DNA of 64,000 bases from Citrobacter sp. Cu233 (GTDB lineage: Bacteria > Pseudomonadota > Gammaproteobacteria > Enterobacterales > Enterobacteriaceae), in contig NZ_JAOWIF010000021.1 in assembly GCF_030332225.1 (NCBI RefSeq), forward strand, positions 64,001 through 128,000, read 5' to 3'. The notes below the pieces were generated by a model. The model had not been told where the DNA came from. It saw nothing but the letters and a program-made list of their open reading frames with translations, and did no database searches. The translations under genes and the position numbers were made by a program. Below, one piece after another: positions 30,795-48,889 of this stretch; the first letter of the stretch is position 1, and each line of letters begins with the position of its first letter.

Positions 30795-30808
30795 AATACG
30801 CTCCTTGG

Positions 30809-31492: not shown

Positions 31493-31515
31493 GGGCAGAA
31501 TTCTCCTTATATCAT

Positions 31516-31546: not shown

Positions 31547-31560
31547 GTTGTTGTGGCGGG

Positions 31561-32502: not shown

Positions 32503-32534
32503 GTTGTATTCCTCGTAGCTGTAGGGTTTTGTTG

Positions 32535-33530
32535 TTATGCACTTTGATGATGCCGGGTACGGTATTTGTCGATCAGCACCGCTATGATGATCACCGCCCC
32601 TTTGATCACCAGTTGCCAGAAATAAGACACGCCCATCAGCGTCATGCCGTTATTGAGCGTGGCGATAATCAGCGCACCCACCAGCGTGCCGGTAATGGTG
32701 CCGATCCCGCCGACAAAACTGGTGCCGCCGAGGATCACTGCGGCAATGGCGTCCAGCTCATAACCCATGCCTAAGTTACCGTTGGCGCTATACAGCCGGG
32801 AGGCGCTCATCACCCCGCCAAGACCTGAGAGCAAACCGCTCATGCCATAGACGAACAGCAGCACCAGCCATACTTTGATACCGGTTAAGCGTGCTGCCTG
32901 CATATTGCCGCCAACCGCGTAGATATGGACGCCGAGCGTCGTGCGGCGCAGAATGAACCAGCACACCACCACCACCGCCAGTGCAATCACCACCAGCCAC
33001 GGTACCGGACCGAGATAGTTGTTGCCGATCCACTCAAAGCTGATGTTGGAGTTGATCACCGTTGTGCCATCCGCCAGCAGGTAGGCCGCGCCGCGTAACG
33101 CGGTATAAGTCCCTAGCGTGACGATAAACGGCGGCAGTCCGGCGAAGGCGACCAGTGCGCCATTAAACAGCCCCAGTACCAGGCCGAGCATCAGCGCTGC
33201 CGGAATCGACAGCATGGCCAGCTCAGGAATAAGAGAAACGACCATCGCCGCAACGGCAGTGGTGCCGAGAATTGAACCGACGGAGAGATCGATCCCACCG
33301 GTGAGAATGATGAACGTCATGCCCGCCGCCAGCACAATGTTGATCGATGCCTGACGGGTAATATTCAGCAGGTTGCTCTCCGTAAAAAAGTTTGGCGCGA
33401 TAAAGCCAAATACCGCCACAATCAGGATCAGAATGGGTAAGATGCCGACCGTTTGCATCAGATCGCTCATCAACATTTTTTTTGCGGAGGCGGATTTCGC
33501 CACCTGCCGGGGAGGGGTTGAATTATTCAT
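32535..33530 (-). CDS. Sugar ABC transporter permease (RbsC type)
   Basis: 331 residues, branched-chain/ribose permease family with 8-10 membrane helices. The family segment [23 protein letters not shown] is intact and [23 protein letters not shown] occurs near the C-terminus. It overlaps the ATPase gene by 8 bp. A single permease gene implies a homodimeric channel. Confidence 0.93.
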
Positions 33531-35046
33531 GGGGCACCGCCTGATGATGGGAGTCGTTCACGCCGGTTGCAAGCGTCATAATATTTTCCTGGGTAATGCT
33601 TTTCCCGTCCAGCTCGCCAGCAATACTGCCTTCCCGCATGACATATACCCGATCGCTCATGCCGACCACTTCCGGCAATTCACTGGAGATCATCAGGATC
33701 GCCACGCCTTTGCGTGCCATATCGTTCATGATCCGGTAGATCTCGCTTTTGGCACCGACGTCCACGCCGCGCGTGGGTTCATCGAGGATTAAAATGCGGG
33801 GGCCAATCGCCACCCAACGCGAGATGAGTAATTTTTGCTGATTGCCGCCGGACAAGCCGCCCGCGCGGACCTGCGCATGCGGCACGCGAATGTTGAGCAA
33901 CTGGATGGCGTCATCGGAAATGGCCTGCGCTTTTTTGCGATCGAGCATGCCCCAGTTGGCGTCACGCTCCAGCGTCGCCATGGTGATGTTCTCTGCCGCC
34001 GCCAGTTCCAAAAACAGCCCCTGTTCTTTGCGGTTCTCGGTCAGAAAGCCAATGCCGTGGTCAATGGCTTCACGCGGGGAGTGGATAACCACTGGCTCGC
34101 CGTCGACTTCAATCATGCCGCCGATCGCTTTGCGTACGCCAAAAATCAGCTGCGCCAGTTCGGATCGCCCGGCGCCCACCAGACCCGCAAGGCCGACAAT
34201 TTCCCCGGAACGCACTAATAAACTGCACGGCTGCACTTTGTTGCCGTCAGTCAGGTGATGCACGTTCAGGCGCGCTTTGCCGAGCGGGATATCGCGCTCT
34301 TTGTTGAACAGATCGCTTAACGGGCGGCCAACCATCATGCGCACCAGTTCCGAAGCATTAAGCTTGTCGCGGGTCAGGTTACCGACATACTGCCCATCGC
34401 GCAGTACGCTGACGCGATCGGAGAGTTCATAGACTTCTGCCATACGGTGGCTGATATAGATAATCGCCATGCCTTCATCGCGCAGGCGCATGATCAGTTC
34501 AAACAGGCGGTGCGTCTCACGCGAGGAGAGGGCAGCGGTGGGTTCATCCATGACCAGGATACGGCTGTTACGGTGCAGGGCGCGGGCGATTTCGACCTGC
34601 TGCTGCTCGGCAATGGTCAGCGTCATGACCCGGTCGCTGGCCTTAAACTGGGCACCGAGTCGGTCGATAACCTTCTGCGACTGCGTCACCATCTCTTTAC
34701 GCTGGACCAGACCACCGCGCGACAATTCACTGCCGAGGAAGATATTCTCCGCCACCGTCAGATTTGGTGCGAGTTGCATCTCCTGATAAATCAGGGTAAT
34801 GCCTGCACTTAACGCATCCTTGGGTCCACGAATATGAAAAGGTTGTCCGTCAATCAGGATCTCGCCGCTGGTGGCGGTATAGGCCCCCGCGAGGATCTTC
34901 ATCAGGGTGCTTTTCCCCGCGCCGTTTTCGCCCATCAGGGCATGGATCTCACCCGGCCAGACCGTTAAATCGACCCCTTTCAGCGCGTAAAATTTGCCAA
35001 ACGCTTTGGCAATGTTGCGCATTTCCAGAACCGGTGTCCTGCTCAT
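33523..35046 (-). CDS. Sugar ABC transporter ATPase with two nucleotide-binding domains (RbsA type)
   Basis: 507 residues with two fused ABC domains. The first has Walker [10 protein letters not shown], signature [15 protein letters not shown] and Walker [11 protein letters not shown]; the second has a degenerate Walker A region (GLVGAGRSE), signature [14 protein letters not shown] and Walker [12 protein letters not shown]. This is the RbsA/XylG pattern. It is the first gene of the leftward operon, with AGGAG before the start, and is divergent from the sensor kinase. Confidence 0.94.
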
Positions 35047-35160
35047 AGCGGATCTCCTGCGGGGTGGCCGATATCAGCAGTCCATCACAGGAATGTAAAT
35101 GCAAAATGTCAGAAGCCGTTCATATTTGTCATATTGCGATTTTTCTTCATGGGGCGTGAT

Positions 35161-37425
35161 ATGCCGCAACCAGGACATCTCTTTTTCGCCAGTGCGCGCG
35201 GGCGATTACTGTTTTTCAACCTGCTGGTGGTGGCTGTTACGTTGATGGTCAGCGGCGTAGCGGTGCTGGGTTTTCAGCATGCCAGTCAGATTCAGGAGCA
35301 GGTGCAACAGCAAACGGTTGATGACATGACCGGCAGCATGAATCTGGCGCGCGATACGGCAAATGTAGCAACGGCGGCGGTGCGACTGTCGCAGGTGGTG
35401 GGGGCGCTGGAATACAAAGGTGAAGCGGAACGTCTGCAGGAGACCCAGCGGGCGCTGAAGCATTCACTGGAACAACTGGCTGCTGCGCCGCTGGCACAGC
35501 AGGAGCCGGGGCTGGTCGAGCGTATTATTCAACGCAGCAATGAACTGCAAAGCAGTGTGGAAGGTATGTTGCAGCGCGGACAGCGGCGGCATCTGGAGCG
35601 TAACGCGCTGCTCAGTTCGCTGTACCAGAATCAAAGCTACTTACGCCATCTGCAAAAACTCACCGGCGCGCAGGATGACACGTTGCTTACGCAGATGGAC
35701 CGCCTGATCGTCGCTGCCATTGAGACGCCCGCACCGCGCTCGGTAATCAAACAACTGGACGGCGTGATGCCCGCGCTGCCTCTGCAAGCCAGTAACCTGC
35801 TGATTAGCCGCATTCTCAACGATTTCAATCAGGAACTGCATAAGCTGGAACCGCTTTCTGCCGCACTGGAACAAAGCGACCTGGCGATCAACTGGTATAT
35901 GTTTCATATCAAAGCGCTGGTAGCGATCCTCAACAGTGATATCAACCAGTATGCTTCGCAGGTGGCGTTAATCTCCGAACAGCGGGTGGCGCAAAGCCAC
36001 CAGGAGTTACAGTCCGGCGCGTTGTTTATTCTGGCCTTTGCGCTGCTGGCGGTGGTGATCACCGGTTTTGCTGGCTGGTATATCTACCGCAATCTTGGCT
36101 CCAACCTGACGGCTATCTCGCGCGCGATGACCCGCCTGGCGCATGGGGAATCAGATGTCAGCGTCCCGGCCCTGCAACGGCGTGATGAACTGGGCGAACT
36201 GGCCCGCGCCTTTAGCGTGTTTGCCCGCAATACGGCGTCGCTCGAGCACACCACCCGGCTACTGAAAGAAAAAACCACCCAGATGGAAATCGATCGCACC
36301 GAACGCCAGGGGCTGGAAGAAGCACTGCTACACAGCCAAAAGCTGAAAGCGGTAGGGCAACTGACCGGCGGATTAGCGCATGATTTCAATAACCTGCTGG
36401 CGGTGATTATCGGCAGTCTGGATCTGGTGAATCCGGATTCGCCCGATGCGCCACGGATCAACCGGGCGCTAAAAGCGGCTGAACGTGGGGCGATGCTGAC
36501 CCAGCGACTGCTGGCCTTTTCACGCAAACAGTCTTTGCATCCGCACGCGGTAGAGCTGAAAACGCTGCTGGAGAACCTGGGCGAACTGATGCGCCATTCG
36601 CTACCTAACACGTTTATGCTGGAAATCGAGGCCCAATCGCCCGCCTGGCCGGCGTGGATTGACGTCAGCCAACTGGAAAACGCCATTATCAATCTGGTGA
36701 TGAACGCTCGTGATGCGATGGATGGGCAGGCCGGTATGATTAAGATCCGCTCGTGGAATCAGCGTGTTACGCGTAGCGATGGTCGCAAACAGGACATGGT
36801 GATGCTGGAAGTGGCTGACCAGGGCAGTGGCATGTCACAGGAAATTAAGGCACAGGTCTTCGAACCGTTCTTCACGACCAAACAAACCGGTAGTGGGAGT
36901 GGACTGGGGCTGTCGATGGTGTACGGCTTTGTGCGTCAATCTGGCGGTCGCGTAGAGATCGAAAGTGCGCCAGGGCAGGGAACCACTGTCAGGCTACAGC
37001 TTCCTCGTGCCATTGTGCCGGTGCAAGTTCCGGTCGAACCGATAGCAGAGCATCCAGCGACCAGCGGTGAGAAGCTGGTTCTGGTGCTCGAAGATGAGGC
37101 CGATGTGCGTCAGACGTTGTGCGAACAATTACATCTTTTGGGCTACCTGACGCTCGAAGCCGCTAACGGCGAACAGGCAATGCATATGCTGGCGGCTTCA
37201 GCAGAGATTGATATTCTTGTCAGCGACTTAATGTTGCCAGGCGGATTGAGTGGCGCGGATGTGGTCAATCATGTCCTGAAGCATTATCCGCAACTGAATA
37301 TTCTGCTGATTAGCGGTCAGGATTTACGTCCGGCGCATAATCCGGCGCTGCCGGATGTGGCGCTATTGCGTAAACCGTTTACCCGAGGGGAACTGGCCCA
37401 GGCGCTGCGACGCGCACGTAATTGA
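35161..37425 (+). CDS. Hybrid sensor histidine kinase flanking the sugar operon
   Basis: About 755 residues from the ATG at 35161 (ATG at 35149 and TTG at 35134 are alternatives; none has a strong Shine-Dalgarno). Order: TM1 (about 17-40), helical periplasmic sensor, TM2 (about 288-310), HAMP (about 310-360), HisKA with phospho-acceptor His407 (GGLAHDFNNLLAVI), HATPase_c (NARDAMDG, DQGSGM, GSGSGLGLSMVYG), and a C-terminal receiver with Asp689 (VSDLMLPGG) and Lys in LRKPF. There is no HPt domain. It is divergent from the ABC genes; its probable output regulator is the OmpR-type gene at 28201. The receiver may tune the kinase rather than relay. Confidence 0.9.
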   Translation: MPQPGHLFFASARGRLLFFNLLVVAVTLMVSGVAVLGFQHASQIQEQVQQQTVDDMTGSMNLARDTANVATAAVRLSQVVGALEYKGEAERLQETQRALKHSLEQLAAAPLAQQEPGLVERIIQRSNELQSSVEGMLQRGQRRHLERNALLSSLYQNQSYLRHLQKLTGAQDDTLLTQMDRLIVAAIETPAPRSVIKQLDGVMPALPLQASNLLISRILNDFNQELHKLEPLSAALEQSDLAINWYMFHIKALVAILNSDINQYASQVALISEQRVAQSHQELQSGALFILAFALLAVVITGFAGWYIYRNLGSNLTAISRAMTRLAHGESDVSVPALQRRDELGELARAFSVFARNTASLEHTTRLLKEKTTQMEIDRTERQGLEEALLHSQKLKAVGQLTGGLAHDFNNLLAVIIGSLDLVNPDSPDAPRINRALKAAERGAMLTQRLLAFSRKQSLHPHAVELKTLLENLGELMRHSLPNTFMLEIEAQSPAWPAWIDVSQLENAIINLVMNARDAMDGQAGMIKIRSWNQRVTRSDGRKQDMVMLEVADQGSGMSQEIKAQVFEPFFTTKQTGSGSGLGLSMVYGFVRQSGGRVEIESAPGQGTTVRLQLPRAIVPVQVPVEPIAEHPATSGEKLVLVLEDEADVRQTLCEQLHLLGYLTLEAANGEQAMHMLAASAEIDILVSDLMLPGGLSGADVVNHVLKHYPQLNILLISGQDLRPAHNPALPDVALLRKPFTRGELAQALRRARN

Positions 37426-37494
37426 GATTCCTCCGCTACTCGCGTCAAAGCACTTTGATTACCGTGGAGCCAGTTTCTTTATGAGGCTGGTTTG

Positions 37495-37824
37495 ATGAAA
37501 CGCTCCCCGACGCTCTTTTTATTCAGTTTGCTGATGTTGACGACGATTTCGGCGCATGCAGACATTATTGATGACGCCATTGGCAATATTCAACGTGCCG
37601 TCAGCGATGCTTATAACCCGGATAACAATCGGGATTATGACGACTCACGTGATGATGGCTGGCAGCGTCAGATGAGTGACGATCGCCGCAGGCAATATAA
37701 TGATCGCCGGCGCCAGTTTGAAGACCGCCGCCGTCAGTTAGACGATCGCCAGCGGCAGCTCGATCAGGAACGGCGTCAACTGGAAGATGAAGAGCGCAGA
37801 ATGGAAGAGGACTACGATCGCTAG
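37495..37824 (+). CDS. yjdP: YjdP, exported Arg/Asp-rich protein
   Basis: 109 residues: signal peptide (MKRSPTLFLFSLLMLTTISAHA|DI) and a highly charged helical C-terminal half built of repeated DDRRRQ/EDRRRQ/DDRQRQLDQERRQLE units, probably a single coiled coil. Orthologue of E. coli YjdP, which adjoins phnP; function unknown. Start at 37495 follows GAGG and gives the E. coli length. Its TAG stop overlaps the stop codon of the convergent SDR gene. Confidence 0.85.
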   Translation: MKRSPTLFLFSLLMLTTISAHADIIDDAIGNIQRAVSDAYNPDNNRDYDDSRDDGWQRQMSDDRRRQYNDRRRQFEDRRRQLDDRQRQLDQERRQLEDEERRMEEDYDR

Positions 37825-38564
37825 CCACGTCCAACAAATGGCATTTCATTCGCCATGATAGTTAATTCGAGCACATTCGTGGTTGTCGGTAAGGCGGCTA
37901 TCATTTGGATTGCCGCAGTGACATCAGCCACATCCATCACGGGTTCGACTCGCATATTCCCATCTGCTTGCTGAACGCCTTCAGACATGCGTTCCGACAT
38001 CTGCGTTCGCGCATTACCAATATTGATTTGTCCGCAAGCGATATTAAATTTTCGACAATCGAGGGCGATCGACTTGGTTAAACCCGTTATCGCGTGTTTC
38101 GAAGATGTATAAGCGGCGCTGAACAGGCGAGGTGTGACAGAAGAAATAGACGCATTGTTAATGATCCTTCCCCCCATTGGTCGCTGCTGTTTCATCAATC
38201 GGATTGCTTCTCTGGAGCAAAGAAAACTGGCGTGCACATTGATATTAAATACGCGCAACCACTCTTCAACGCTGATCTCTTCTACAGATTTGCTGGGGCT
38301 ATTAATTCCGGCATTATTAAACAGCAGATCCAACCGACCAAATCTGTGTTGAATGTGTTGGAACAGGCGTTCAACCTCGGCGGGATTGGTGACATCCGCG
38401 TTGATTGCGACAAAACGCTCTGGGGATGAATAACCCTCATTAAGAATGAGTTGTTCCGCATGGCGGGCGACAATAATCACAATGTAATCCATCTGGCGCA
38501 GCGCTTTTGCTGCCTCATAACCAATGCCTTTACTTCCGCCAGTAATAAGAGCCACTTTCTGCAT
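37821..38564 (-). CDS. Short-chain dehydrogenase/reductase, divergent gene of catabolic island B
   Basis: 247 residues, classical SDR: NAD(P)-binding GGSKGIGYEAAKAL, NNAGI motif, and the catalytic Ser...Tyr-x3-Lys in SISSVTPRLFSAAYTSSK. The start at 38564 is preceded by GGAGGATCT, an excellent ribosome site; longer readings are not supported. It faces away from the crotonase operon across the 309-bp gap containing a 22-bp palindrome, so both are probably controlled together. Substrate unknown; oxidation of a hydroxyl in the island's catabolic route is a reasonable guess. Confidence 0.88.
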   Translation of the reverse strand: MQKVALITGGSKGIGYEAAKALRQMDYIVIIVARHAEQLILNEGYSSPERFVAINADVTNPAEVERLFQHIQHRFGRLDLLFNNAGINSPSKSVEEISVEEWLRVFNINVHASFLCSREAIRLMKQQRPMGGRIINNASISSVTPRLFSAAYTSSKHAITGLTKSIALDCRKFNIACGQINIGNARTQMSERMSEGVQQADGNMRVEPVMDVADVTAAIQMIAALPTTTNVLELTIMANEMPFVGRG

Positions 38565-38660
38565 AGATCCTCCTGATTCATAGCACATTGTTTGTTTTTA
38601 CGAATGACTTCTCTGAAAGCATATTGGATACGACGTGATAAAAATGTTATGTCGATCACT

Positions 38661-38682
38661 ACTTACTTACTAGTAAGTAAGT
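38661..38682. promoter_or_regulatory. Perfect 22-bp palindrome, probable TetR operator of island B
   Basis: The half-site ACTTACTTACT is followed by its exact complement AGTAAGTAAGT (38661-38682). It lies between the divergent SDR and crotonase operons, 97 bp from the SDR start and 28 bp before a small ORF. Perfect palindromes of this length are typical of TetR-family operators, and the island ends with a TetR-family gene. I found no second copy in the window. Confidence 0.65.
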
Positions 38683-38709
38683 ATAAATATAAACGCAGAA
38701 GGGAAACCG

Positions 38710-38877
38710 ATGACAAAACCCTGGTCGTCCAATGGCGCAGGCTTATCGGATCTATGGCGTGTTCATAATTTTTTGAATTTATTTGATATTTTGTCTGATA
38801 AGGTGCCGTCCGGCAATAAAACAGGGCGCTTTGTCAGCAATCTGAGAATGTTTTTTCTACACAGGAACAGACAATGA
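38710..38877 (+). CDS. Small ORF (55 aa) coupled to the crotonase gene
   Basis: An uninterrupted ATG-to-TGA frame, MTKPWSSNGAGLSDLWRVHN... ending FFLHRNRQ. It has a GAAGGG sequence 8 bases upstream and ends in an ATGA overlap with the crotonase start (ATG 38874). The sequence is basic and does not resemble any protein I know. It could be a leader peptide that couples translation to the operon, the remnant of a longer gene, or chance in an A/T-rich leader. It is the first ORF after the 22-bp palindrome. Confidence 0.4.
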   Translation: MTKPWSSNGAGLSDLWRVHNFLNLFDILSDKVPSGNKTGRFVSNLRMFFLHRNRQ

Positions 38878-39626
38878 ACAATCAAATTGTAGTGTATCGA
38901 CACGGGGCGATTGCCGAAGTGGTGATCAATCGGCCGGAAAAAATGAATGCCATGACGCCAGAAATGAGCGAAGTACTGGCGCGTTGTTTTACACAACTCA
39001 ATGATGATGAAGAGATCCGTGTAATACTACTTCGTGGCGAAGGCGAGCGGGCATTTTGCGCGGGTAGCGATTTAAAGGCGCTGGATAGTTACCCCTCCGC
39101 GGCCAATTTCCGCCAGCGTATCGATTACGGCACAACGGTACGTCGCGCCCGCAAACCGGTGGTTGCCGCCCTGAGAGGTTGGGTATTGGGCGGTGGTCTG
39201 GAAATGATGCTGGCGGCAGATATTCGTATTGCTGGCCATAGCGCCAAATTTGGCGCACCGGAGGTTATCCGTGGCTGGGTTGGAGGGGGCGGCGCATCAC
39301 AATTTCTTCCCCGTTTAGTCGGGTACGGTCAGGCGATGCGTTTACTGTTAAGTGGCGACAATATTGATGCGCAGGAAGCCTGGCGTATTGGGCTGATCGA
39401 ATATTTGGTGGCTGATGATGAGGTTAATGACGTTGCGATGATCTTGTGTCAGAAGTTGGCTGAGCATAATCCACTGGCGGTACAGGCAGTGAAAAGCGCT
39501 GTGCGGGGTGCATTGTCTATGCCGCTTGAAGCGGGGATGCAATATGAAAATGAGCTTACGACACTCTGTTTTGCGGTGGGTAATTACCAACAAGGAACGG
39601 CTGCATTCAGTAAACAGCGGCCATAG
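38874..39626 (+). CDS. Enoyl-CoA hydratase/isomerase (crotonase) family enzyme
   Basis: 250 residues. Oxyanion-hole segments are present as FCAGSDLKAL and GWVLGGGLEMMLAADIRIAG, and both usual catalytic glutamates have equivalents (GGGLEM and FGAPEVIRGWVGGGG). It should act on a CoA thioester: hydration, isomerisation or C-C cleavage. It opens the rightward operon of island B (crotonase, transporter, CoA-transferase and more), suggesting that the substrate is degraded as a CoA ester. Confidence 0.88.
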   Translation: MNNQIVVYRHGAIAEVVINRPEKMNAMTPEMSEVLARCFTQLNDDEEIRVILLRGEGERAFCAGSDLKALDSYPSAANFRQRIDYGTTVRRARKPVVAALRGWVLGGGLEMMLAADIRIAGHSAKFGAPEVIRGWVGGGGASQFLPRLVGYGQAMRLLLSGDNIDAQEAWRIGLIEYLVADDEVNDVAMILCQKLAEHNPLAVQAVKSAVRGALSMPLEAGMQYENELTTLCFAVGNYQQGTAAFSKQRP

Positions 39627-39768
39627 GGTATTTGTTTGCAAAGATAAATTATTGTGCAATCACATCGGCACACTAATCAATCGGATGGTAAAAAAAATGT
39701 AAGGCAAAACGATCTTCTTATTATGCTGTGAAGAAGAACATCTTACCCTATATGCAGGAGAATGTTCT

Positions 39769-41127
39769 ATGAGTCAGGCATCATCACAAGAATACAGGGC
39801 GAATAAAAATGTCAAACGTGCAATTTTTGCGTCGACATTGGGAACAATAATTGAATGGTATGATTATGGTCTGTATGCAGCCGCTTCCGGTTTAATTATT
39901 AATAAACTGTTCTTCCCGGAGATGAGTCAACTTGGGGGAACGCTGGCTGCATTTGCTACATTCGCTATTGGTTTTATTATCAGACCCATTGGCGGTGTGG
40001 TTATTTCTCATATTGGTGATAAATTTGGACGCAAACCGGCGCTTATTTTCTGTATTTCCATTATGGGGATCGCCACCGTTGGTATCGGTATTCTTCCGAC
40101 CTGGCAGACCATAGGCATATGGGCGCCGATATTGCTTATTTTCTTACGAATGTTACAAGGTTTCGGCGCAGGGGCGGAACTGGCCGGAGCGATTACGTTA
40201 GTTGCAGAGTATACGCCAATTCACCGACGCGGATTTTTTACGTCTATTCCCAATACCGCAACAAACTTTGGCGTACTCATTGCCACAATGACCTTTTTGG
40301 CCTTTTCGTGGGTGCCGGAAGAAACTTTATTGGGATGGGTATGGCGTATTCCGTTCCTGATTTCTGTGCTGCTGTTCGGCGTTGCGTTGTACATTCGCGC
40401 GAAGCTGGATGAAACCCCCGAATATGTCCAGGCAATGGAAAAAGCGCACAGTCAGAAACAACAGCAAAAAGCGCCGATCCGTCAGCTATTTAAAGAAAGC
40501 CCGCGTGAACTGCTGTGTGGTTTTTTTGCGATGGGAGGACACCAGGCTTTGACATATGTACTCAATACGTTTGCGCTAAGCTATATGATTAATACCCTGG
40601 GGATGCCTAAATCTGACGGGCTTATGGTATTAATTATCGCACTTTCATTTACTCTCATCTGCGGCCCAATCGGCGGCTGGTTATCTGATCGTTTTGGTAG
40701 TGCGAGAATATATATCTGCGGTGCATTATTTGCTCTTTGTTTTGTTTATCCCCTCTTTTATTTGGTCGATACCAAAGATACTTTACTGGCAACGCTGGGC
40801 GTCAGCATTATTTATGGTATCAGTTGGGGATGTACCGGCGGAGCGCAAGGCGCATTTTTATCTAACCTTTTCCCCACAAAATACCGTTTTTCAGGTATTG
40901 CGATGTGCAGGGAATGTTCAGGTGCTGTTATTGGTGGGCCGACGCCCTTTATTGCAACCGCATTAGTTGCACTGGCTGATGGCAGGCCGACCTGGGTTAT
41001 GGTTTATTTAGGATTCTTTTGCCTGCTCACTGCCGTTTCTGTCGGATTGGGGCAACACTTATCACGGCATCACAAGACAGAGCTGGTTTCATCGCCAATA
41101 AATGGGAAACAAATCTCATCAATTTAA
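39769..41127 (+). CDS. MHS-family (ShiA/KgtP-like) metabolite:proton symporter
   Basis: 452 residues, 12 membrane helices, major facilitator superfamily. The N-terminal GTIIEWYDYGLYAAASGLI and RPIGGVVISHIGDKFGRKPAL are hallmarks of the metabolite:H+ symporter subfamily (ShiA, ProP, KgtP, YhjE), which carries organic acids and zwitterions. AGGAG lies 8 bp upstream of the start. In island B it is the probable importer of the organic-acid substrate; shikimate-like acids would fit the shikimate-dehydrogenase homologue downstream. Confidence 0.88.
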   Translation: MSQASSQEYRANKNVKRAIFASTLGTIIEWYDYGLYAAASGLIINKLFFPEMSQLGGTLAAFATFAIGFIIRPIGGVVISHIGDKFGRKPALIFCISIMGIATVGIGILPTWQTIGIWAPILLIFLRMLQGFGAGAELAGAITLVAEYTPIHRRGFFTSIPNTATNFGVLIATMTFLAFSWVPEETLLGWVWRIPFLISVLLFGVALYIRAKLDETPEYVQAMEKAHSQKQQQKAPIRQLFKESPRELLCGFFAMGGHQALTYVLNTFALSYMINTLGMPKSDGLMVLIIALSFTLICGPIGGWLSDRFGSARIYICGALFALCFVYPLFYLVDTKDTLLATLGVSIIYGISWGCTGGAQGAFLSNLFPTKYRFSGIAMCRECSGAVIGGPTPFIATALVALADGRPTWVMVYLGFFCLLTAVSVGLGQHLSRHHKTELVSSPINGKQISSI

Positions 41128-41268
41128 TATTGTCGAAATTTAATTAACGCTAAACGAAATAATTCTACAGCTGCGGGTATTTCAATTCTGCCTCTTTGCG
41201 ATGGGCGTTTCTTCGGCGTCAATATACAGGTGTGGATTTATTTCAATGTTTTATTATGGAGAATTATT

Positions 41269-42876
41269 ATGCGAATTGTTACAGCGGATGAAGCCGTTTC
41301 GTTGTTATGTGACGGCGATACTCTGATGATCAGTGGGTCTGGTGCGGGGCATGCTACGCCAGAGGCATTGCTGGAAGCGCTGGAGCGTCGTTATCAGGCG
41401 CAGAATTCCCCCCGACAACTTACTGCGTTTCATCCGGTTGGTCTGGGCGATCGTACCTTTCGCGGGGCGTCGCGATTGGCATACCCTGGTTTATTAAAAC
41501 GGGTCGTCTGCGGCACGCTGGTTGATTCCCCGCCGCTGGCGAAAATGGCGCTGAATAATGAAATTGAAGCCTGGACATTGCCGCAGGGCGTACTCTCACA
41601 ATTGACCCGAGAAATGGCCGCCGGCCGGCCTGGCCTGATAAGCCATGTCGGGCTGCATACCTTCGTCGATCCTCGTCAACGCGGCGGTCGGCAAAGCGAG
41701 TGCTGTTCTGAGGAACTCGTTAGTCTGATAGAAATTGCCGGTAAGGAGTGGCTTTATTACAAGCCTTTTCACGTTGATATCGCATTTTTACGCGGCACGA
41801 CGGCGGATGAAGACGGCAATATCACCATGGAGCAGGAAGCTATTTTTGGCGACATGCTGTCGATGGCTCAGGCTACCCGGCGCAACGGTGGGTTAGTGAT
41901 AGTCCAGGTAAAACGCATTGCCAAACGCGGTACGTTACCCGCCAAAAGCGTCAAAATTCCGGCAATGCTGGTGGATTTGGTGGTTGTCGATCCCGGGCAG
42001 TCAGTCACCTACCAAAGTCCAAATGACCCGGCCTTTACCGGAGAACTGCGCATTCCGCTTGATGGATTCCCGGTACTGCCGCTGGATGAGCGTAAAATCG
42101 TCGCCCGCCGCTGCGCGATGGAATTGCAGCCTGGGGCGGTATGCAACGTTGGCTCGGGGATCTGTACGGGTATCGGTCTCGTCGGCGCTGAAGAGAATAT
42201 TCTCGACCAGATCGTCCTCACTAACGAGCAGGGGCTGATCGGCGGCGCGCCAGCCGCAGGTCTGGACGCTGGCGCGGCGCGTAATTATAGCGCGATGATC
42301 GATCAACCTTATCAATTCGATTTCTACGACGGCGGCGGCATTGATATCGCCTTCCTGTCAGCGGCAGAAATTGACGGCGGCGGTAGCGTCAACATCAGCC
42401 GTTTCGCCAATAAGCTGATTGGCGTGGGCGGATTTATCAATATTAGCCAGAATGCGAAAAAAATGGTCTTCGGTGGCACCTTTACCGCCGGAGGGCTTCG
42501 CGTAGCCTGTCAGGGCGGGCAGTTGCGGATTATGCAGGAAGGCGCGCATCAAAAATTCGTCAGCCAATTACAGCAGGTTTCCTACAGCGGTCCTTACGCC
42601 AGTCAGCGTGGTCAGGTCACGCTGTTTGTGACCGAACGCGCGGTATTCCAGGTGAAGGACGGTGAACTCGAGTTAATTGAAATCGCGCCGGGCATTGATC
42701 TGGAACGCGATATTTTGCAGCAAATGCGTTTTCGTCCTCGTATCGCAGCCGAACTGAAGTTGATGGACGCCAGGCTCTTTTCGCCGGAACCGATGGGATT
42801 GTCTGCGGAGATGGCGGTTAAACCCCGCTCATGTCACCCGCGACTGGCGTCATTATCCTCAAAGGTACAACCATGA
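41269..42876 (+). CDS. Family I CoA-transferase, fused alpha-beta (YdiF type)
   Basis: 535 residues joining both halves of a family I CoA-transferase, as in acetate CoA-transferase YdiF. The expected catalytic glutamate is Glu320 in LTNEQGLIGGAP, and the glycine-rich MISGSGAGHATPEALLEALE opens the first half. It should move CoA from acetyl-CoA or succinyl-CoA to the pathway acid, activating it without ATP. Start at 41269 follows GGAG; a longer reading at 41230 lacks support. It overlaps the next gene by 4 bp (ATGA). Confidence 0.88.
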   Translation: MRIVTADEAVSLLCDGDTLMISGSGAGHATPEALLEALERRYQAQNSPRQLTAFHPVGLGDRTFRGASRLAYPGLLKRVVCGTLVDSPPLAKMALNNEIEAWTLPQGVLSQLTREMAAGRPGLISHVGLHTFVDPRQRGGRQSECCSEELVSLIEIAGKEWLYYKPFHVDIAFLRGTTADEDGNITMEQEAIFGDMLSMAQATRRNGGLVIVQVKRIAKRGTLPAKSVKIPAMLVDLVVVDPGQSVTYQSPNDPAFTGELRIPLDGFPVLPLDERKIVARRCAMELQPGAVCNVGSGICTGIGLVGAEENILDQIVLTNEQGLIGGAPAAGLDAGAARNYSAMIDQPYQFDFYDGGGIDIAFLSAAEIDGGGSVNISRFANKLIGVGGFINISQNAKKMVFGGTFTAGGLRVACQGGQLRIMQEGAHQKFVSQLQQVSYSGPYASQRGQVTLFVTERAVFQVKDGELELIEIAPGIDLERDILQQMRFRPRIAAELKLMDARLFSPEPMGLSAEMAVKPRSCHPRLASLSSKVQP

Positions 42877-43709
42877 AGCCGATGGTCATTAATGGCAGCA
42901 CCCGGCTGTATGGCATCGCAGGCGACCCGGTTGCCCAGGTCAAAACCCCGGAGCTGTTGAATTCATTTTTTCAGCAAACCGGCATTAATGCGGTCTGCGT
43001 ACCGCTACAGGTGGCGACGAGCGGGTTTGAAGCCAGTCTGCGCGGCGTAATGCAGTTGAGTAATCTGGATGGTCTGGTGATCACCGTCCCGCATAAAGTC
43101 CGCGCCTGTGCGCTGACGGAATCCCTTTCTGCAGAGGCGCAGCGCGTGGGAGCCGTCAATGTACTACGTCGTTGTGAAGATGGCGGATGGCATGGCGATA
43201 TGTTTGACGGAACGGGGCTTATTGTTGGCCTGCTCAGGCAGGGCTTTGTACTGAAAGGGCAGCATGTTAAGCAACTCGGCGCTGGCGGGAGCGGCGCTGC
43301 CGTTGCGTTTGCTCTGCTGGCGGCGGGAGCGGCGTCTGTCACTCTGTGCGATCCTGACGACAACGCGGCGCAGGCGCTGGCACAACGCATTAACGCCAGC
43401 TATTCGCAACACCCCGCTCGCGTCAGCGACGCCCCGGCTGAACTGGTGGGCATTGACCTGCTGATCAACTGTTCCCCCATAGGTATGAAACCTGATGACG
43501 GCCTGCCTGCGCCATTCGCTGACTTCAGTCCATCGTTGCAGGTCGTGGATATCATTATGCACCCTGCTGAAACCCCTCTGCTTGCCCATGCCCGACGTGC
43601 GGGCTGTCATGCTGTCAATGGCAAACCGATGATTGAGGGACAACTGGCGGAGTTTATTCATTTCTTTGGTTTGGCCGATAAGGAGTCGCTATGCGCCCGC
43701 TCACGCTGA
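42873..43709 (+). CDS. Shikimate/quinate dehydrogenase-like protein (AroE/YdiB family)
   Basis: 278 residues with both AroE domains. Catalytic pair: Lys75 (TVPHK) and Asp112 (GDMFDGTG, for GDNxDGxG). The N-terminal substrate motif, SxS in AroE, is changed to Val-Lys-Thr (AQVKTPELL). The nucleotide loop is GAGGSGAAVAFALLAAGA, with strand-2 end LCDPD, whose acid residue favours NAD over NADP. A catabolic NAD-dependent dehydrogenase for a shikimate/quinate relative is likely, not biosynthesis. Start by ATGA overlap with the CoA-transferase. Confidence 0.85.
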   Translation: MKPMVINGSTRLYGIAGDPVAQVKTPELLNSFFQQTGINAVCVPLQVATSGFEASLRGVMQLSNLDGLVITVPHKVRACALTESLSAEAQRVGAVNVLRRCEDGGWHGDMFDGTGLIVGLLRQGFVLKGQHVKQLGAGGSGAAVAFALLAAGAASVTLCDPDDNAAQALAQRINASYSQHPARVSDAPAELVGIDLLINCSPIGMKPDDGLPAPFADFSPSLQVVDIIMHPAETPLLAHARRAGCHAVNGKPMIEGQLAEFIHFFGLADKESLCARSR

Positions 43710-44554
43710 CTCCGCAACATCTTTCCCTGAACACTGCCACGTTAGGGCCTGGCGCGTCGCTGCATGATGCCGTTCAGGGATGTGTGAAATACGGTTTTGG
43801 CGGCATCGCTCCCTGGCGCGACAAAGTGGCGGAAATCGGCTTATCCCAGGCCAGTCGTCTGATTCGTGATGCGGGATTACAGGTGAGCGGATTGTGCCGT
43901 GGCGGAATGTTTTCTGCTGCCAGTCGTACTGAACGTGAAAAAATTCGTGCGGATAATCTGCGGGCGATTGACGAAGCCGCAGCGCTGGATGCTGCTTGTC
44001 TGGTGCTGGTGGTCGGTGGTTTGCCTGCCGGTTCCAGAGATCTGGACAACGCCCGACAGCAGGTTGAAGACGGCATCGCCGATATGCTGGAACATGCGCG
44101 CATGGCAAATGTTCGCCTGGCGATTGAACCGTTGCACCCAATGTATGCAGGCGATCGCGCCTGCATCAACACACTGGCGCAGGCGCTGAGTTTGTGCGAA
44201 CGGTTGGGGGCCGATGTTGGTATTGCCGCTGACGTTTACCACATCTGGTGGGATCCCGATATTGTCACGCAACTTCAGCGAGCAGCCAATATGCAGCGTC
44301 TGCTGGCTTTTCATCTCAGTGACTGGCTGGTGCCTACCCGCCACCTGTTGACCGATCGCGGCATGCCGGGCGATGGCGTCATCAATCTTTCTCATTTATG
44401 TCAAACCGTTGCCGACACTGGTTATCAGGGGCTTTATGAGGTGGAGATTTTCTCTGCGGAAAACTGGTGGCGACAACCGGTAGATACAACCTTAAGCACT
44501 CTCGTTACACGCCTGGAACATCTTAATAATACAGGAGATCGTCATGAAGATTGA
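43691..44554 (+). CDS. TIM-barrel sugar isomerase/epimerase family protein (AP-endonuclease-2 fold)
   Basis: 287 residues, xylose-isomerase-like TIM barrel (IolE, hydroxypyruvate isomerase and 3-dehydroshikimate dehydratase share this fold). Probable metal ligands: Glu in AIEPLHPMYAG, Asp/His in IAADVYHIWWDPD, His in LAFHLSDWL, Glu in GLYEVEIF. AAGGAG before the start; overlaps the previous gene by 19 bp. Isomerase, epimerase or dehydratase action on the dehydrogenase product would fit; the family cannot be narrowed by eye. Confidence 0.83.
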   Translation: MRPLTLTPQHLSLNTATLGPGASLHDAVQGCVKYGFGGIAPWRDKVAEIGLSQASRLIRDAGLQVSGLCRGGMFSAASRTEREKIRADNLRAIDEAAALDAACLVLVVGGLPAGSRDLDNARQQVEDGIADMLEHARMANVRLAIEPLHPMYAGDRACINTLAQALSLCERLGADVGIAADVYHIWWDPDIVTQLQRAANMQRLLAFHLSDWLVPTRHLLTDRGMPGDGVINLSHLCQTVADTGYQGLYEVEIFSAENWWRQPVDTTLSTLVTRLEHLNNTGDRHED

Positions 44555-45932
44555 TAATACGCTGACGCCTCATGATTTGCTGCCCGCGATTGAACGTATG
44601 TGGGACGCCTCTGCCGGGAAAATCATTGCGATTGACGCCAGCGCCGATCGTACCAAAGGCGCACCTGTACATACCATTGCCGGACGTTATCAACCAAAAG
44701 GGTGGACGGACTGGACGCAGGGTTTTGAGTACGGCAGCGCGTTATTGCAGTTTGACGCTACAGGCGAGCGCTCGTTTCTGGAAACGGCGCTGGCGCGTAT
44801 TCGTCACGATATGCCGCAGCACATCACTCATTTCGGCGTACACGATCATGGCTTTAATCAAATCAGCACTTATGGGCAGTTACTGCGCCTGATGGCGGAA
44901 GGAAAACTGCCGACAGACCCGGGCGTCAGGGACTATTACCAGTTAGCCGTTCGCTGTTCCGGGGCGGTACAGGCCTATCGCTGGACCGATCTGGGCGATG
45001 GACAGGGATACATCCACTCTTTCAACGGCGCGCATTCATTATTCATTGATACCTTACGTACCCTACGCACGCTGCTGTTGGCGCACAGCCTGGGGCATGT
45101 CATGAAAATTGAGGGTGATGTGGCGATCTCTTTGTTGGATCGGGCGCTGACGCATGCGCTCACCAGCGCGCGCTACTGCATTTTCTATGGCGAAGGGCGG
45201 GATATTTACGACATTCGCGGCAGAACGGCGCACGAAGCTATCTTCAACCCGCGTAACGGCGCATTCCGCTGCGTGGGGACACAGCAAGGGTATTCGGGTT
45301 TCTCTACCTGGACTCGTGGTTTGAGTTGGGCCATGTGCGGTTTCGCGGAAATACTGGAATATCTCCAGGTATTGCCTGCAGAAAAATGGCAAACAGAACG
45401 GGATAAACCCACCACGATGGCGACGCTGGAAAAGGCCGCTGCCGCTGTGTGTGATTTTTATCTCGATTTTACTCTGTGGGACGGTATCCCCTACTGGGAT
45501 ACCGGCGCGCCAGGTCTGGCGACGGTGGATGCGCCCTACGATCGTGAATCTGATCCTGAAAATGCAGTCGAACCCGTGGACAGCTCCGCGGCGGCGATTG
45601 CGGCGCAAGGCTTACTTCGGTTTGCGGCCTGGCTTCGCGCCAGCGGGCACACGGGCGCAGATCGTTATCATCAGGCCGGGTTGTCGGTGCTGAGAACGCT
45701 ACTGGATGACCGCTACCTGAGTCTGGACAGGCAGCACCAGGGGCTTTTGCTGCATAGCCAGTATCATCGGCCCAACGGTTGGGACTACGTGCGTTCCGGG
45801 CATAAAAACCCGTTCGGCGAAGCGACTATGTGGGGAGATTACCATCTGCGCGAGCTGGCGCTTTATGTTCAGCGTCTGGCCAACAACGAACCCTATGTCG
45901 CTTTTTTCAGCGCGGCAGGAGGTGAGCAATGA
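44544..45932 (+). CDS. GH88-like glycoside hydrolase (unsaturated glucuronyl hydrolase family)
   Basis: 462 residues forming an (alpha/alpha)6-barrel protein of the GH88/GH105 group; recognisable segments are GFEYGSALLQFDATGE, HFGVHDHGFNQISTYGQLLR, GYIHSFNGAHSLFIDTLRTL and WDGIPYWDTGAPGL. GH88 enzymes hydrate the C4-C5 double bond of unsaturated uronic acids, releasing the aglycone. There is no signal peptide, so it acts on an imported small molecule in the cytoplasm. ATGA overlap with the next SDR. Confidence 0.83.
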   Translation: MKIDNTLTPHDLLPAIERMWDASAGKIIAIDASADRTKGAPVHTIAGRYQPKGWTDWTQGFEYGSALLQFDATGERSFLETALARIRHDMPQHITHFGVHDHGFNQISTYGQLLRLMAEGKLPTDPGVRDYYQLAVRCSGAVQAYRWTDLGDGQGYIHSFNGAHSLFIDTLRTLRTLLLAHSLGHVMKIEGDVAISLLDRALTHALTSARYCIFYGEGRDIYDIRGRTAHEAIFNPRNGAFRCVGTQQGYSGFSTWTRGLSWAMCGFAEILEYLQVLPAEKWQTERDKPTTMATLEKAAAAVCDFYLDFTLWDGIPYWDTGAPGLATVDAPYDRESDPENAVEPVDSSAAAIAAQGLLRFAAWLRASGHTGADRYHQAGLSVLRTLLDDRYLSLDRQHQGLLLHSQYHRPNGWDYVRSGHKNPFGEATMWGDYHLRELALYVQRLANNEPYVAFFSAAGGEQ

Positions 45933-46711
45933 GTTCGTTATGTTCCATTCGTGTCGCCCTGATCACCGGAGGGCGTCGGGGAATTGGTCTTGCCATCGCC
46001 AGACGGCTGGCAAGAGATGGTTATCACATTGCGATTACCGGTAGCGGTGATGCTGACGACGCCACGCACGCCGCTATAGCGCAGCTGGAAAACTGCGGTA
46101 TACAGGCCGGTTATTTCGCCAGCGATATCGCCGATATTACGCAGCATGACCTGCTGCTTGATCGGGTCGAGCAACAACTGGGAGCCGTTTCCGTGCTGGT
46201 TTCCAATGCCGGTATTGCACCGCCTGAAAGGCTTGATGTACTTGAAACCTCCGGGGCTAATTTCGACTCGGTGATGAACACCAACCTGCGCGGGGCGTTT
46301 TTTCTCTCCCAGGCAATGGCCCGACGAATGCTTACCCGCCCGACTGCCGAAGGTGAACGCAGTATTGTCTTCATCACTTCTTGTTCTGCGGAAATGGCGT
46401 CGGTCAATCGGCTGGAGTACTGCATCTCGAAAGCCGGATTGTCAATGGTCGCTCAGGGGCTGGCAACACGGCTTGCGGCGGACGGCATCGGCGTTTTTGA
46501 AATCCGTCCAGGCATTATCCGCACCGATATGACCGCCAACGTGAATGAAAAATATGACCGCTTGATCGGCGAAGGAACGGTGCCCGCCCGACGCTGGGGA
46601 AAAGGCGATGACATCGCTGCGGCGGTTAGCATGGTGCTGAAACCAGATGCGTTTTTCGCCACTGGCTCAGTCATTCACGCTGACGGCGGATTAACATTAC
46701 AACGTCTTTAA
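45929..46711 (+). CDS. Short-chain dehydrogenase/reductase (FabG-like) of island B
   Basis: 260 residues, classical SDR: ALITGGRRGIGLAIARRLA cofactor loop, SNAGIAPPE, catalytic Ser (ITSCSAEMAS), Tyr-x3-Lys (LEYCISK) and PGIIRTDMTA. This is the second SDR of the cluster and is translationally coupled to the GH88 gene. It could oxidise a 3-hydroxyacyl-CoA or an alcohol on the ring or sugar portion of the substrate. Confidence 0.88.
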   Translation: MSSLCSIRVALITGGRRGIGLAIARRLARDGYHIAITGSGDADDATHAAIAQLENCGIQAGYFASDIADITQHDLLLDRVEQQLGAVSVLVSNAGIAPPERLDVLETSGANFDSVMNTNLRGAFFLSQAMARRMLTRPTAEGERSIVFITSCSAEMASVNRLEYCISKAGLSMVAQGLATRLAADGIGVFEIRPGIIRTDMTANVNEKYDRLIGEGTVPARRWGKGDDIAAAVSMVLKPDAFFATGSVIHADGGLTLQRL

Positions 46712-46729
46712 GACGCAGGGAGACAGCGT

Positions 46730-47203
46730 ATGGATAAGATTTTACCCGCGACGGAAAAGCGGCTGTCGGCTGGTGAGTATGGTTACGACAGTTTGCAGCC
46801 TGGCGATTACTGGCACACCTCAGCCATTACTGTGACAGAAGCGCATATTGTTGCCTTTGCTGGCATTACAGGCGATTTTTTTGATGTGCACATGGACGAC
46901 GAGTTTGCCCGTCAGCAGGGGTTTCCTGGCCGTATTGCTCATGGCTTATTAGGATTAGCGCTGACCGATGGTTTGAAAACCCGTTGCACGGTGCGGTTGC
47001 GCGGCATCGCGACATTAGGCTGGAACTGGTCATTCTGCGCACCTTTACTGCCCGGTGACCGTATTTCCGCACGCATCTGTGTTGTGAAAAAACGCCCAAC
47101 GAAGAATAGCGAGCGCGGGATTGTTACGTTCGCGTTGCAAGTCATCAACCAGCAGGACGTCGTTATTCAGCAGGGCGAAACGTTACTTATGATGCAATAC
47201 TGA
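46730..47203 (+). CDS. MaoC-family (R)-specific hydratase-like protein
   Basis: 157 residues, hot-dog fold. The MaoC hydratase-2 motif is ITGDFFDVHMDDEFA: the catalytic Asp and His are kept while the usual Asn-Pro is Phe-Asp. It is the last enzyme gene of the operon, 18 bp after the SDR, with GGGAG before the start. Together with the crotonase gene it gives two hydratases in the operon, hinting at two distinct hydration or dehydration steps. Confidence 0.85.
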   Translation: MDKILPATEKRLSAGEYGYDSLQPGDYWHTSAITVTEAHIVAFAGITGDFFDVHMDDEFARQQGFPGRIAHGLLGLALTDGLKTRCTVRLRGIATLGWNWSFCAPLLPGDRISARICVVKKRPTKNSERGIVTFALQVINQQDVVIQQGETLLMMQY

Positions 47204-47401
47204 TACATCTATAAGAGGGCGCGATTCGCTTACTGTGCGCTCTCTTTTTCTTCACCAACATGTCTTCTGACGTTGCTTCTGTCAGAGTTTTTGCTATCTC
47301 CCTGAAAAAGTGCTAAAGATTTTACGCCGATATCAGCTGTTCAGGCGCTGTATTCAAATTATGATGAAGTTGAATATCGGAGCCAGACTCAGGGAGGGAT
47401 T

Positions 47402-48055
47402 GTGTCAATACCAGATCAGAAACAGAGTGCGACAGTAAACAGCACCATGCAGGATAAGATCAAAGAACTTACTCGTAACTTACTGATTGCGCATGGCTAC
47501 CATAAAACAACGTTCGGCGTGATTGCCAAAGCGTTACAGGTGACGACGACCAATATTCATTACCACTTCGGTAATAAAAATAACCTTGTTGAGATTGTGG
47601 TCAGTGAATATGTCGCTGAAGCCAAAAAAAAACAAAGCACTATTTGGCTGGATAAAACCACAACGCTGGAACAAAAAGTGTCTAATGTGGTGGCATATAA
47701 CTACCAGCTTTACAAAAAATATAATCCGGATGGCGAGGGATGTCATCCGTGGAGCCTTATTGGTCGGTTACGTCTGGAAAAGGATGTACTTACAGAAGAA
47801 ATGTGCCGTTCTCTTGCATCATTTACTCAACTTATGCAGGATGTTATTGGTCAGGCCGTTGAATACGCCTGGCAGCAGGGGCAATTAAAAGCGGATACGC
47901 CGCGTCAGGATCTGGTCCTGCTTCTCACTCATCTGGTAGACAGCTCATCGGTTTTTGCGCAAGACTCGGGAAGCTTTAGCCGACTTGAACAATTCTTCAA
48001 TGCCTTCTGCCGCGTGGTTCTGTCCATGTATATGGTTAAACCTTCCGCAAATTGA
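47402..48055 (+). CDS. TetR-family transcriptional regulator of island B
   Basis: 217 residues: N-terminal HTH (LLIAHGYHKTTFGVIAKALQ, VTTTNIHYHFGNKNNLVEIVV) and an all-helical ligand domain. The start is GTG at 47402 behind AGGGAGG. Separated from the MaoC gene by 198 bp, it may have its own promoter. It is the only regulator in island B and the natural candidate for the 22-bp palindrome at 38661-38682. The inducer is unknown. Confidence 0.88.
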   Translation: MSIPDQKQSATVNSTMQDKIKELTRNLLIAHGYHKTTFGVIAKALQVTTTNIHYHFGNKNNLVEIVVSEYVAEAKKKQSTIWLDKTTTLEQKVSNVVAYNYQLYKKYNPDGEGCHPWSLIGRLRLEKDVLTEEMCRSLASFTQLMQDVIGQAVEYAWQQGQLKADTPRQDLVLLLTHLVDSSSVFAQDSGSFSRLEQFFNAFCRVVLSMYMVKPSAN

Positions 48056-48130
48056 TTCCGCAGAGGCATGGCGTTGACGCTTCCGGCAGTTACTGTCATT
48101 CGCGCCTGAACTCTCTGTCGGCATAACCCG

Positions 48131-48889
48131 TTAATCCATCACAATCGCCATGCCGTCGTATCCGGCTTCGAATCCTTCCGGCAGCGGGTTATCCATGAGC
48201 CAGACATCGAACTGATGGCTGATGTGCGTCAGGATCACTCGTGGGCAGCGGATCACCTCGTTGAGGGCGATGACGGTATTTACATCGCTGTGATTGCGTG
48301 GCGGCTCGGCGCGTGGGGCGTGGCTGCAGTCGATGATAATCACGTGAGGTTGGTTATTGTGGAGAAACTTCAGCGTCTTGTCGGGAAGCCCGGCGGTATC
48401 GGAGAGCCACGCCACGCGGCTGTGCGCTGTTTCCAGCAAATAGCCAAACGTCAGCTTAGAGTGGTTGAGCGGCAGTGGCGTGACCTGTAATCCCTGCAAA
48501 TCTAACACCACAAACGGCGCGACGGTCTGGCTAAAATCGAGAATACCGGGGTGCTTAAACAGATCGTCGCAGCCCTGTTCATCCGGTGGGCCGTACACCG
48601 GGATCGTTTTCCCCACCCCCCAGCGCAGCGGAAACAGTCCCTGTACATGATCCATATGATAGTGAGTGAGCAAGAACTGCTGGAAACTGCCTGCCGGCCA
48701 GTCGTCCATCAGATGTGGGATCCCTGCATCCAGAAGCGTTACCGTGTCGTTGAATTTGACCACGCCACTGCAGGGGCGCCGGCGGTATTGCGCCTGTAAA
48801 CGAGCTCGCTGGCAGGCGGCACAGTCGCAGCCAAAAGCCGGTACCAACTGTGCGCCGCCGGTTCCTGTAAGCGTAATGGTCAGACTCAT
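48131..48889 (-). CDS. phnP: Phosphoribosyl cyclic phosphodiesterase PhnP
   Basis: 252 residues, metallo-beta-lactamase fold. Metal ligands are in [13 protein letters not shown] (HxHxDH) plus WLSDTAGL (Asp) and later ILTHISH; an additional zinc-binding group is in [12 protein letters not shown]. It opens 5-phospho-alpha-D-ribose 1,2-cyclic phosphate to ribose 1,5-bisphosphate, a late C-P lyase step. Last gene of the phn operon, convergent with the island B TetR gene. Confidence 0.95.

Follow-up and report, generated by a model that had tools for sequence, protein, structure and literature searches.

What does a cluster of ten genes that brings together CoA-type, shikimate-type and uronide-type enzymes do, and which substrate would it serve? 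This question is raised by an island between yjdP and phnP in Citrobacter sp. Cu233, which lies in a stretch of 64,000 nucleotides (contig NZ_JAOWIF010000021.1, positions 64,001 to 128,000), hereafter the window. The reading that we favour, to which we give a probability of about 0.36 on the basis of protein families and gene neighbourhoods, is that the island takes up a uronic-acid compound, makes a 4,5-unsaturated uronide from it by way of coenzyme A (CoA), opens this compound with a GH88-like protein and ends in 2-keto-3-deoxygluconate (KDG).

Gene content and the proposed uronide route

An earlier note, made from the DNA letters, had described ten genes between yjdP and phnP. All ten frames are open and their families were confirmed by a check of the open reading frames (ORFs) and by Pfam and NCBIfam profile scans. 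The features are the following.

37492-37824: yjdP, flank of the island, named in the homologous record and lying inside the 93.1% identical block described below
37821-38564, minus strand: SDR1, a divergent short-chain dehydrogenase (SDR); PF00106, 6.7e-49
38662-38681, between SDR1 and the crotonase: perfect 20-bp palindrome CTTACTTACTAGTAAGTAAG, predicted TetR operator
38874-39626, plus strand: crotonase-family enoyl-CoA hydratase; PF00378, 3.5e-55
39769-41127, plus strand: MHS-type metabolite:H+ symporter of the major facilitator superfamily (MFS); TIGR00883, 379 bits, 443 needed
41269-42876, plus strand: fused family I CoA-transferase, YdiF-type; YdiF structure 2ahu, 6.4e-146
42873-43709, plus strand: AroE-like dehydrogenase; nearest structure 4k28
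43691-44554, plus strand: PF01261 TIM barrel, SMc04130 type; structure 3ju2, 8.5e-102
44544-45932, plus strand: GH88-clade protein; GH88 predicted fold, D101 and D169
45929-46711, plus strand: SDR2, NF009386 family; 326.9 bits, cut-off 250
46730-47203, plus strand: MaoC hydratase; PF01575, 2.8e-21, GDFFDVH motif at residue 48
47402-48055, plus strand: TetR regulator; PF00440, 7.7e-10
phnP: the other flank of the island

The start-stop overlaps described before are present as well, running from the CoA-transferase through SDR2 (CoA-transferase/AroE 4 bases, AroE/TIM 19, TIM/GH88 11, GH88/SDR2 4), and they join the CoA-transferase, AroE-like, TIM barrel, GH88-like and SDR2 genes into a tight five-gene chain. 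MaoC follows SDR2 after 18 bases and TetR follows MaoC after 198. The two gaps 5' of the chain, at the crotonase and the carrier, measure 142 and 141 bases, and a simple consensus-only scan found no terminator-like site in them. The sigma-70 scan gave 6 sites against 11 in shuffled sequence, and terminator-like sites numbered 15 against 12.

In the favoured route the MHS carrier would import the acid and the CoA-transferase would load CoA onto its C6 carboxylate. Since the alpha carbon of a C6 thioester is C5 and its beta carbon C4, the C4 hydroxyl would lie at the position from which a crotonase removes water, and the crotonase, perhaps with MaoC, could eliminate it as with any 3-hydroxyacyl-CoA. 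In D-glucuronate H5 and O4 are cis and C4 is of the S type, and crotonases eliminate syn from (3S)-hydroxyacyl-CoA; as an argument of consistency only, the stereochemistry of D-glucuronate would fit such an elimination. The CoA-transferase would then pass the CoA to the next substrate molecule, in a carnitine-like shuttle, and the GH88-like protein would hydrate the enol ether and free the partner group. The TIM barrel and SDR2 would isomerise and reduce the product to KDG, in parallel to KduI and KduD, and host Eda and a host kinase would complete the breakdown. Regarding the AroE-like enzyme, a redox step at a ring hydroxyl is proposed because it stands at the position of a Gfo/Idh dehydrogenase elsewhere. 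The order of steps given in the earlier note, with release of a sugar part and oxidation before activation as a CoA ester, was not supported.

Residues known from related enzymes are found in the two proteins on which the CoA steps depend. E320 of the CoA-transferase aligns with YdiF E333, which we take to be the active-site Glu. The crotonase has E110 and E130 at the two catalytic Glu positions, 20 residues apart, which is the spacing of the Glu144/Glu164 pair of the usual numbering. MaoC, which may assist the crotonase, likewise has its catalytic residues.

The absence of a thiolase and of an acyl-CoA dehydrogenase had been remarked on before, and indeed neither, nor any thioesterase or lyase, was matched among the ten island proteins (Pfam, NCBIfam). 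Ordinary beta-oxidation was rejected because the first two are absent, and for the same reason CoA would not serve chain shortening here. From the missing thiolase, acyl-CoA dehydrogenase and thioesterase matches we infer a carnitine-type return of CoA from product to substrate, and with such a shuttle a thiolase would be unnecessary.

The GH88-like protein, its clade and known systems

The GH88-like protein scores 26.1 bits on PF07470, against a Pfam cut-off of 26.6, and a protein 97% identical to it (P0001) carries PF07470. For its predicted model (22-row alignment, predicted local distance difference test score 82) unsaturated glucuronyl hydrolases (UGLs) were the first matches by both structure programs, and D101 and D169 align with the UGL catalytic residues D88 and D149 and are invariant in the 22 sequences. 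As modelled, the protein has the fold and the catalytic Asp pair of UGLs, at about 17-26% identity between the clade and solved UGLs in structure alignments. Inspected by eye, the N-terminus (MKIDNTLTP...) shows no signal peptide, and therefore we take the protein as cytoplasmic.

There are at least 8000 GH88 homologues at E 1e-10, and the clade spans many phyla. We surveyed the neighbours within 6.5 kb in 81 loci, namely the top 80 among 585 or more in named genomes plus L015; several of these loci have short flanks, and L031 and L047 are one lineage. The usual neighbour was an SDR2 relative (62 loci), and Gfo/Idh (46), TIM (39), cupin (12) and flavin mononucleotide (FMN) oxidoreductase genes (12) were also found. 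Relatives of Eda and KdgK stand beside GH88 in six loci, and because of them an exit via KDG would be the simplest reading. Regarding polysaccharide lyases, none was among the 25 most frequent of the 111 Pfam families near GH88, in a sample where 95 of 139 chosen neighbouring ORFs were scanned and AraC regulators were the most frequent. As an aside, L031 and L047 represent one region, 85-91% identical, in two metagenome bins, of which one is assigned to Alphaproteobacteria and the other to Anaerolineae; one of these assignments is likely wrong.

The TIM barrel, the cupin and the FMN enzyme never occur two at one locus, for expected overlaps of 5.8, 5.8 and 1.8; the probability of this exclusivity, 1.5e-9, ignores relatedness, and many TIM and FMN loci are from Bacteroidota. 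None of the three was found in 18 loci, some of which have short flanks. Gfo/Idh accompanies the TIM barrel (35 loci) or the cupin (9), and the FMN enzyme in no case. The latter, a PF00724 oxidoreductase (L058 11425-12870 and relatives), adjoins GH88 in its 12 loci with TIM and the usual Gfo/Idh absent, and in 9 of them a different Gfo/Idh-family gene (GfoSec) lies near GH88.

The order Gfo-TIM-GH88-SDR2 in L018, L020 and L022 is the AroE-TIM-GH88-SDR2 order of the window, and from this identical order the AroE-like gene is seen to fill the dehydrogenase slot held elsewhere by Gfo/Idh. Judged likewise by where the genes occur, the TIM barrel and SDR2 go together, because they are both missing from the islands of genomes G333 and G392 and are present together outside the island in both (45% and 56%). 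The TIM barrel had no KduI match and SDR2 reached 127.7 of 338.9 bits on the KduD model TIGR01832; the window's genome encodes KduI, KduD and Eda elsewhere. We considered whether KduI and KduD had replaced the lost pair. This idea was weakened, since a KduI-family gene adjoining KduD is found in genomes with the island TIM/SDR2 (G000, G020) and without it (G333, G392), the KduI model having been applied to G000 and G020 alone, and since the SDR2-TIM pair exists elsewhere in the genomes that lost it. No function was found in the literature for the SMc04130-type TIM family, of which solved structures exist, and no paper was found on SMc04130 itself or on subclasses of AroE-like proteins. The SMc genes neighbouring SMc04130 are named in two papers, in one of them (PMC12542648) in a table.

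The earlier statement that no named pathway has this combination of genes agrees with our literature search, in which no paper on it was found from titles and abstract openings, with subscription journals mostly outside coverage. Several known systems share parts of it. The UGL/KduI/KduD/KdgK/Eda pathway has in common with the island the GH88 fold, the catalytic Asp pair and an SDR, besides the relatives of KDG kinase and 2-keto-3-deoxy-6-phosphogluconate aldolase in six loci; the differences are that here no polysaccharide lyase was seen in the neighbour sample, a TIM barrel stands for KduI, identity is only about 17-26% and CoA enzymes are added. The carnitine CoA shuttle, formed by CaiB and CaiD, likewise consists of a CoA-transferase, a crotonase and a carrier, and our island has no beta-oxidation genes; our CoA-transferase, however, is of family I (YdiF type) and not of the CaiB type III, a sugar acid is predicted, and MaoC and redox enzymes are present. 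The ydi cluster of Escherichia coli, which contains ydiB, aroD and ydiF, also joins an AroE-family dehydrogenase to a YdiF-type CoA-transferase, but the island has no match for aroD or an acyl-CoA dehydrogenase and has GH88, TIM, crotonase and MaoC genes. Finally, the levoglucosan and C-/O-glycoside 3-keto systems (PMC7676230, PMC10628242) resemble it in using a dehydrogenase and an eliminating enzyme on a sugar ring; what is accessible of those two sources makes no mention of GH88, SDR2 or CoA enzymes.

Weighing the uronide route against other explanations

Several findings weigh against the route via CoA. The CoA-transferase occurs in just 5 of the 81 GH88 loci (G020 at L015, Sodalis sp. dw_96 at L016, L018, and L031/L047), most loci having Gfo/Idh with TIM or cupin instead, and therefore the double bond must come from elsewhere in those. 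A crotonase is equally rare (5 of 81, one of them, L064, at 29%). L018 has the CoA-transferase (61%) with MaoC (29%), and L031/L047 have it (41-42%) with a crotonase (38%). The TIM barrel and the CoA-transferase co-exist in the window and in L018 and hence are not exclusive alternatives. In addition, genome G1052 has the CoA-transferase, MaoC, TetR and an operator-like site with GH88 not found (the genome is 78% complete), and G967 has a CoA-transferase while GH88 of the island clade was not found there; because of these two genomes, CoA activation need not serve GH88. TIM relatives also occur in sets with Gfo/Idh and DUF993 that have no GH88 match in the vicinity (L096, L097, L100), and the KDG kinase of the window's genome was not settled with the model used.

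Regarding how widespread the CoA-transferase is, a strict search in 398 genomes of the phylum gave, beyond the window's own, only relatives that are 46-52% identical, and at 65% it was found in 2 of 337 genomes of the class. The window's genome has a second YdiF-type gene elsewhere, which is 46% identical.

The rival that survives best, which we nevertheless consider doubtful, assigns the CoA enzymes to the partner group: GH88 would free a hydroxy acid from an unsaturated uronide, and the CoA-transferase, crotonase and MaoC would hydrate or dehydrate its CoA ester. It would account for the separate unit of G1052, where a CoA-transferase (65%), MaoC (60%), TetR (44%), a palindrome, a TRAP-type (tripartite ATP-independent periplasmic) carrier and AtuA/DUF4387 genes go together with GH88 not found, and also for Rhizobium sp. 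WL3, which clusters a CoA-transferase (64%), MaoC-like, AroE-like and TctCBA genes with no GH88 match. Against it, the island proteins match none of the enzymes that could finish an acyl-CoA (thiolase, acyl-CoA dehydrogenase, thioesterase, lyase), and locus L184 of G392 has a CoA-transferase (42%) and a crotonase (24%) beside SDR2 (40%) and TIM (47%), together with a flavin adenine dinucleotide protein and an MFS carrier and with no GH88 match. This arrangement suggests that CoA is tied to the sugar-acid part; the L184 crotonase is broken by two stops, which counts in turn against the uronide route.

Regarding the two loci without a GH88 match, the G1052 region (L163 119-7903) holds AtuA and DUF4387 genes, the TRAP-type carrier (named by eye), the CoA-transferase, MaoC, TetR and a palindrome close to that of the island. 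The Rhizobium locus (L101) is on a plasmid and also has a FAH-family gene, the whole lying beside tetronate genes.

A second rival is a redox-assisted elimination in which a ring hydroxyl is oxidised to a ketone by the AroE-like or Gfo/Idh enzyme, elimination falls to the TIM barrel and hydration of the enol ether to GH88, after the manner of the 3-keto routes of levoglucosan and C-glycosides, the CoA enzymes being separate. The frequency of Gfo/Idh near GH88 and its company with TIM or cupin, as well as the parallel gene order in L018, L020 and L022, speak for it, and the best NCBIfam model for the Gfo/Idh protein of L020 is levoglucosan dehydrogenase, although weak (68 of 650 bits). Nevertheless, it is the C1 substituent whose loss a 3-keto group favours, so that a UGL-type enzyme would find no 4,5 double bond, and the UGL residues are conserved; several loci, among them L017, L021, L048 and L077, have GH88 and SDR2 without Gfo and without TIM; and the CoA-transferase and the crotonase are unexplained. 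We regard this rival as improbable.

A cyclitol-acid route, close to what the earlier note had suggested, would bring in an acid of the quinate or shikimate type, possibly as a glycoside, oxidise it with the AroE-like enzyme and carry out further steps on its CoA ester. The carrier has the shikimate transporter model as its second best (314 of 538 bits) and the dehydrogenase does belong to the AroE family. Furthermore, locus L186 of G967 has a distant TIM/SDR pair (39% and 31%) close to a 2-keto-4-pentenoate hydratase-like protein and a PF01261 plus Glyoxalase_5 protein, presumably the architecture of a QuiC-type dehydroshikimate dehydratase, and this neighbourhood may keep the cyclitol-acid idea alive against the uronide route. 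However, the AroE-like protein reads QVKTP where the shikimate/quinate dehydrogenases shown read HSxSP, the first Ser being Val and the second Thr, and we take the two serines to bind the substrate carboxylate; it keeps the catalytic Lys and Asp (VPHKV at 72, MFDGTG at 110). Its best NCBIfam shikimate/quinate dehydrogenase score is 157 of 252 bits and it reaches the cut-off of none of the 17 models, and dehydroquinase and dehydroshikimate dehydratase models are unmatched by any of the ten genes (Pfam, NCBIfam). The island TIM barrel was rejected as a close relative of the L186 dehydratase-like protein, the match being just 5e-4, and GH88 chemistry requires an enol ether, which is absent from a carbocycle. 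A quinate or shikimate substrate is therefore less likely than a uronide, and the cyclitol-acid route as a whole appears the least probable of the rivals. A chance grouping of the genes is rejected, since their order is preserved across other genera.

As a side observation, large plasmids of Erwinia, Palleronia and Sinorhizobium carry a set of Gfo/Idh, SMc04130-type TIM and DUF993 genes (L096, L097 and L100), which in Palleronia is accompanied by a tripartite tricarboxylate carrier and in Erwinia by an MFS carrier. Judging from these genes, the set is a probable acid pathway, to which no name could be given. NCBIfam models gave no match for two DUF993 proteins, and no paper on DUF993 was found.

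Regulation, distribution and meaning of the island

Five intergenic stretches were scanned for palindromes of 20 bases, with one mismatched pair allowed, and CTTACTTACTAGTAAGTAAG was the only hit. When 18 of its bases were searched with up to three mismatches, the window gave 1 site and 100 shuffles gave 0. The 14-base core of the palindrome lies 5' of the crotonase exactly in L001, L015, L110, L111 and L114; L112, L113 and L115 have it there with up to two mismatches. Another copy with two mismatches, which lies inside tetR at 47467, does not rise above the level of shuffled sequence. A search of 10 genomes for the pattern ACTKACTAGTMAGT gave hits in 6, a single site in each and invariably at the cluster, with no exact match in G333, G392, G135 and G967. 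In the alphaproteobacterium G1052 it lies between the CoA-transferase and MaoC, followed by TetR. A TetR relative ends the cluster in G020, G085, G333, G057 and G135 and is split in G392. Together, CTTACTTACTAGTAAGTAAG and TetR likely represent a dedicated regulator with its predicted operator.

The GH88 gene is present in 8 of 392 genomes of the family Enterobacteriaceae (E below 1e-60), and the fetched stretches have the same order barring losses and decay, which bears out the expectation that uronide-type and CoA-type enzymes are inherited together as a unit. In G020, from another enteric genus, the nine genes from crotonase to TetR are in identical order, preceded by a second crotonase, an MFS carrier and a TetR gene and followed by mrcB- and hrpB-like genes (by eye). 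G138 has the cluster from crotonase to MaoC, where the contig ends, with split AroE and SDR2 matches, and in G085, G057 and G135 (L111, L114, L115) it is decayed through stops or splits. The cluster of ten genes claimed at first must be reduced: what is conserved is a unit of nine genes that starts with the crotonase and ends with TetR, and SDR1 is an accessory extra, seen in the window and in an Escherichia-type copy and unmatched in the stretches fetched from the other seven genomes of the family.

Among 5426 genomes labelled E. coli one has the whole block and three keep TetR alone; in one of these three records, ML35, an IS200C element adjoins TetR. The block 37420-48221 is 93.1% identical (blastn) to L001, the Escherichia-type strain 14EC007 (megablast: 93.5% over 37420-48055). 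The other pieces common to the window and L001 are 79-85% identical (blastn), and the phn genes of the window, whose counterparts are largely deleted in L001, are about 79% identical to those of the best E. coli records. Because of this difference the island block, yjdP included, has probably moved between genera. No GH88 gene was found on 72,556 plasmids at E 1e-30.

Four RefSeq records labelled E. coli (14EC007, ML35, D1 and 19KM2326N; L001, L002, NZ_CP010134 and NZ_CP151038) were rejected as true E. coli on proP. Their proP stretches are 99-100% alike among them and 80-90% identical to those of the other 5361 E. coli-labelled records, with one record at 90-95%, and therefore they represent another lineage and not typical E. 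coli. They are probably mislabelled Escherichia albertii, since P0001 bears that name.

Next to the island, window 28201-37425 holds another sugar-type island, with genes named by eye from ORFs (response regulator, PfkB kinase, ketose-bisphosphate-aldolase-like, isomerase-like, periplasmic binding protein, permease, ATPase and hybrid sensor kinase). L001 has als and rpiB genes on the same side of yjdP.

Unsaturated uronides are usually ascribed to polysaccharide lyases. A more far-reaching proposal, which we put forward only tentatively and as rather unlikely in full, is a lyase-free route in which a uronide would be loaded with CoA, dehydrated by the crotonase and opened by a cytoplasmic GH88 enzyme once the CoA is passed on. 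It would be the counterpart of the carnitine shuttle for sugar acids, and one of several interchangeable feeds to a conserved GH88/SDR module. The spread of the GH88 clade across phyla, the fact that no lyase was seen in the neighbour sample and the recurring redox, isomerase or CoA partners point to another source of unsaturated uronides. The enteric island is small, has its own regulator and predicted operator and is probably mobile, and therefore it would be a compact system for finding the substrate. Furthermore, it suggests functions for the widespread SMc04130-type TIM-barrel family.

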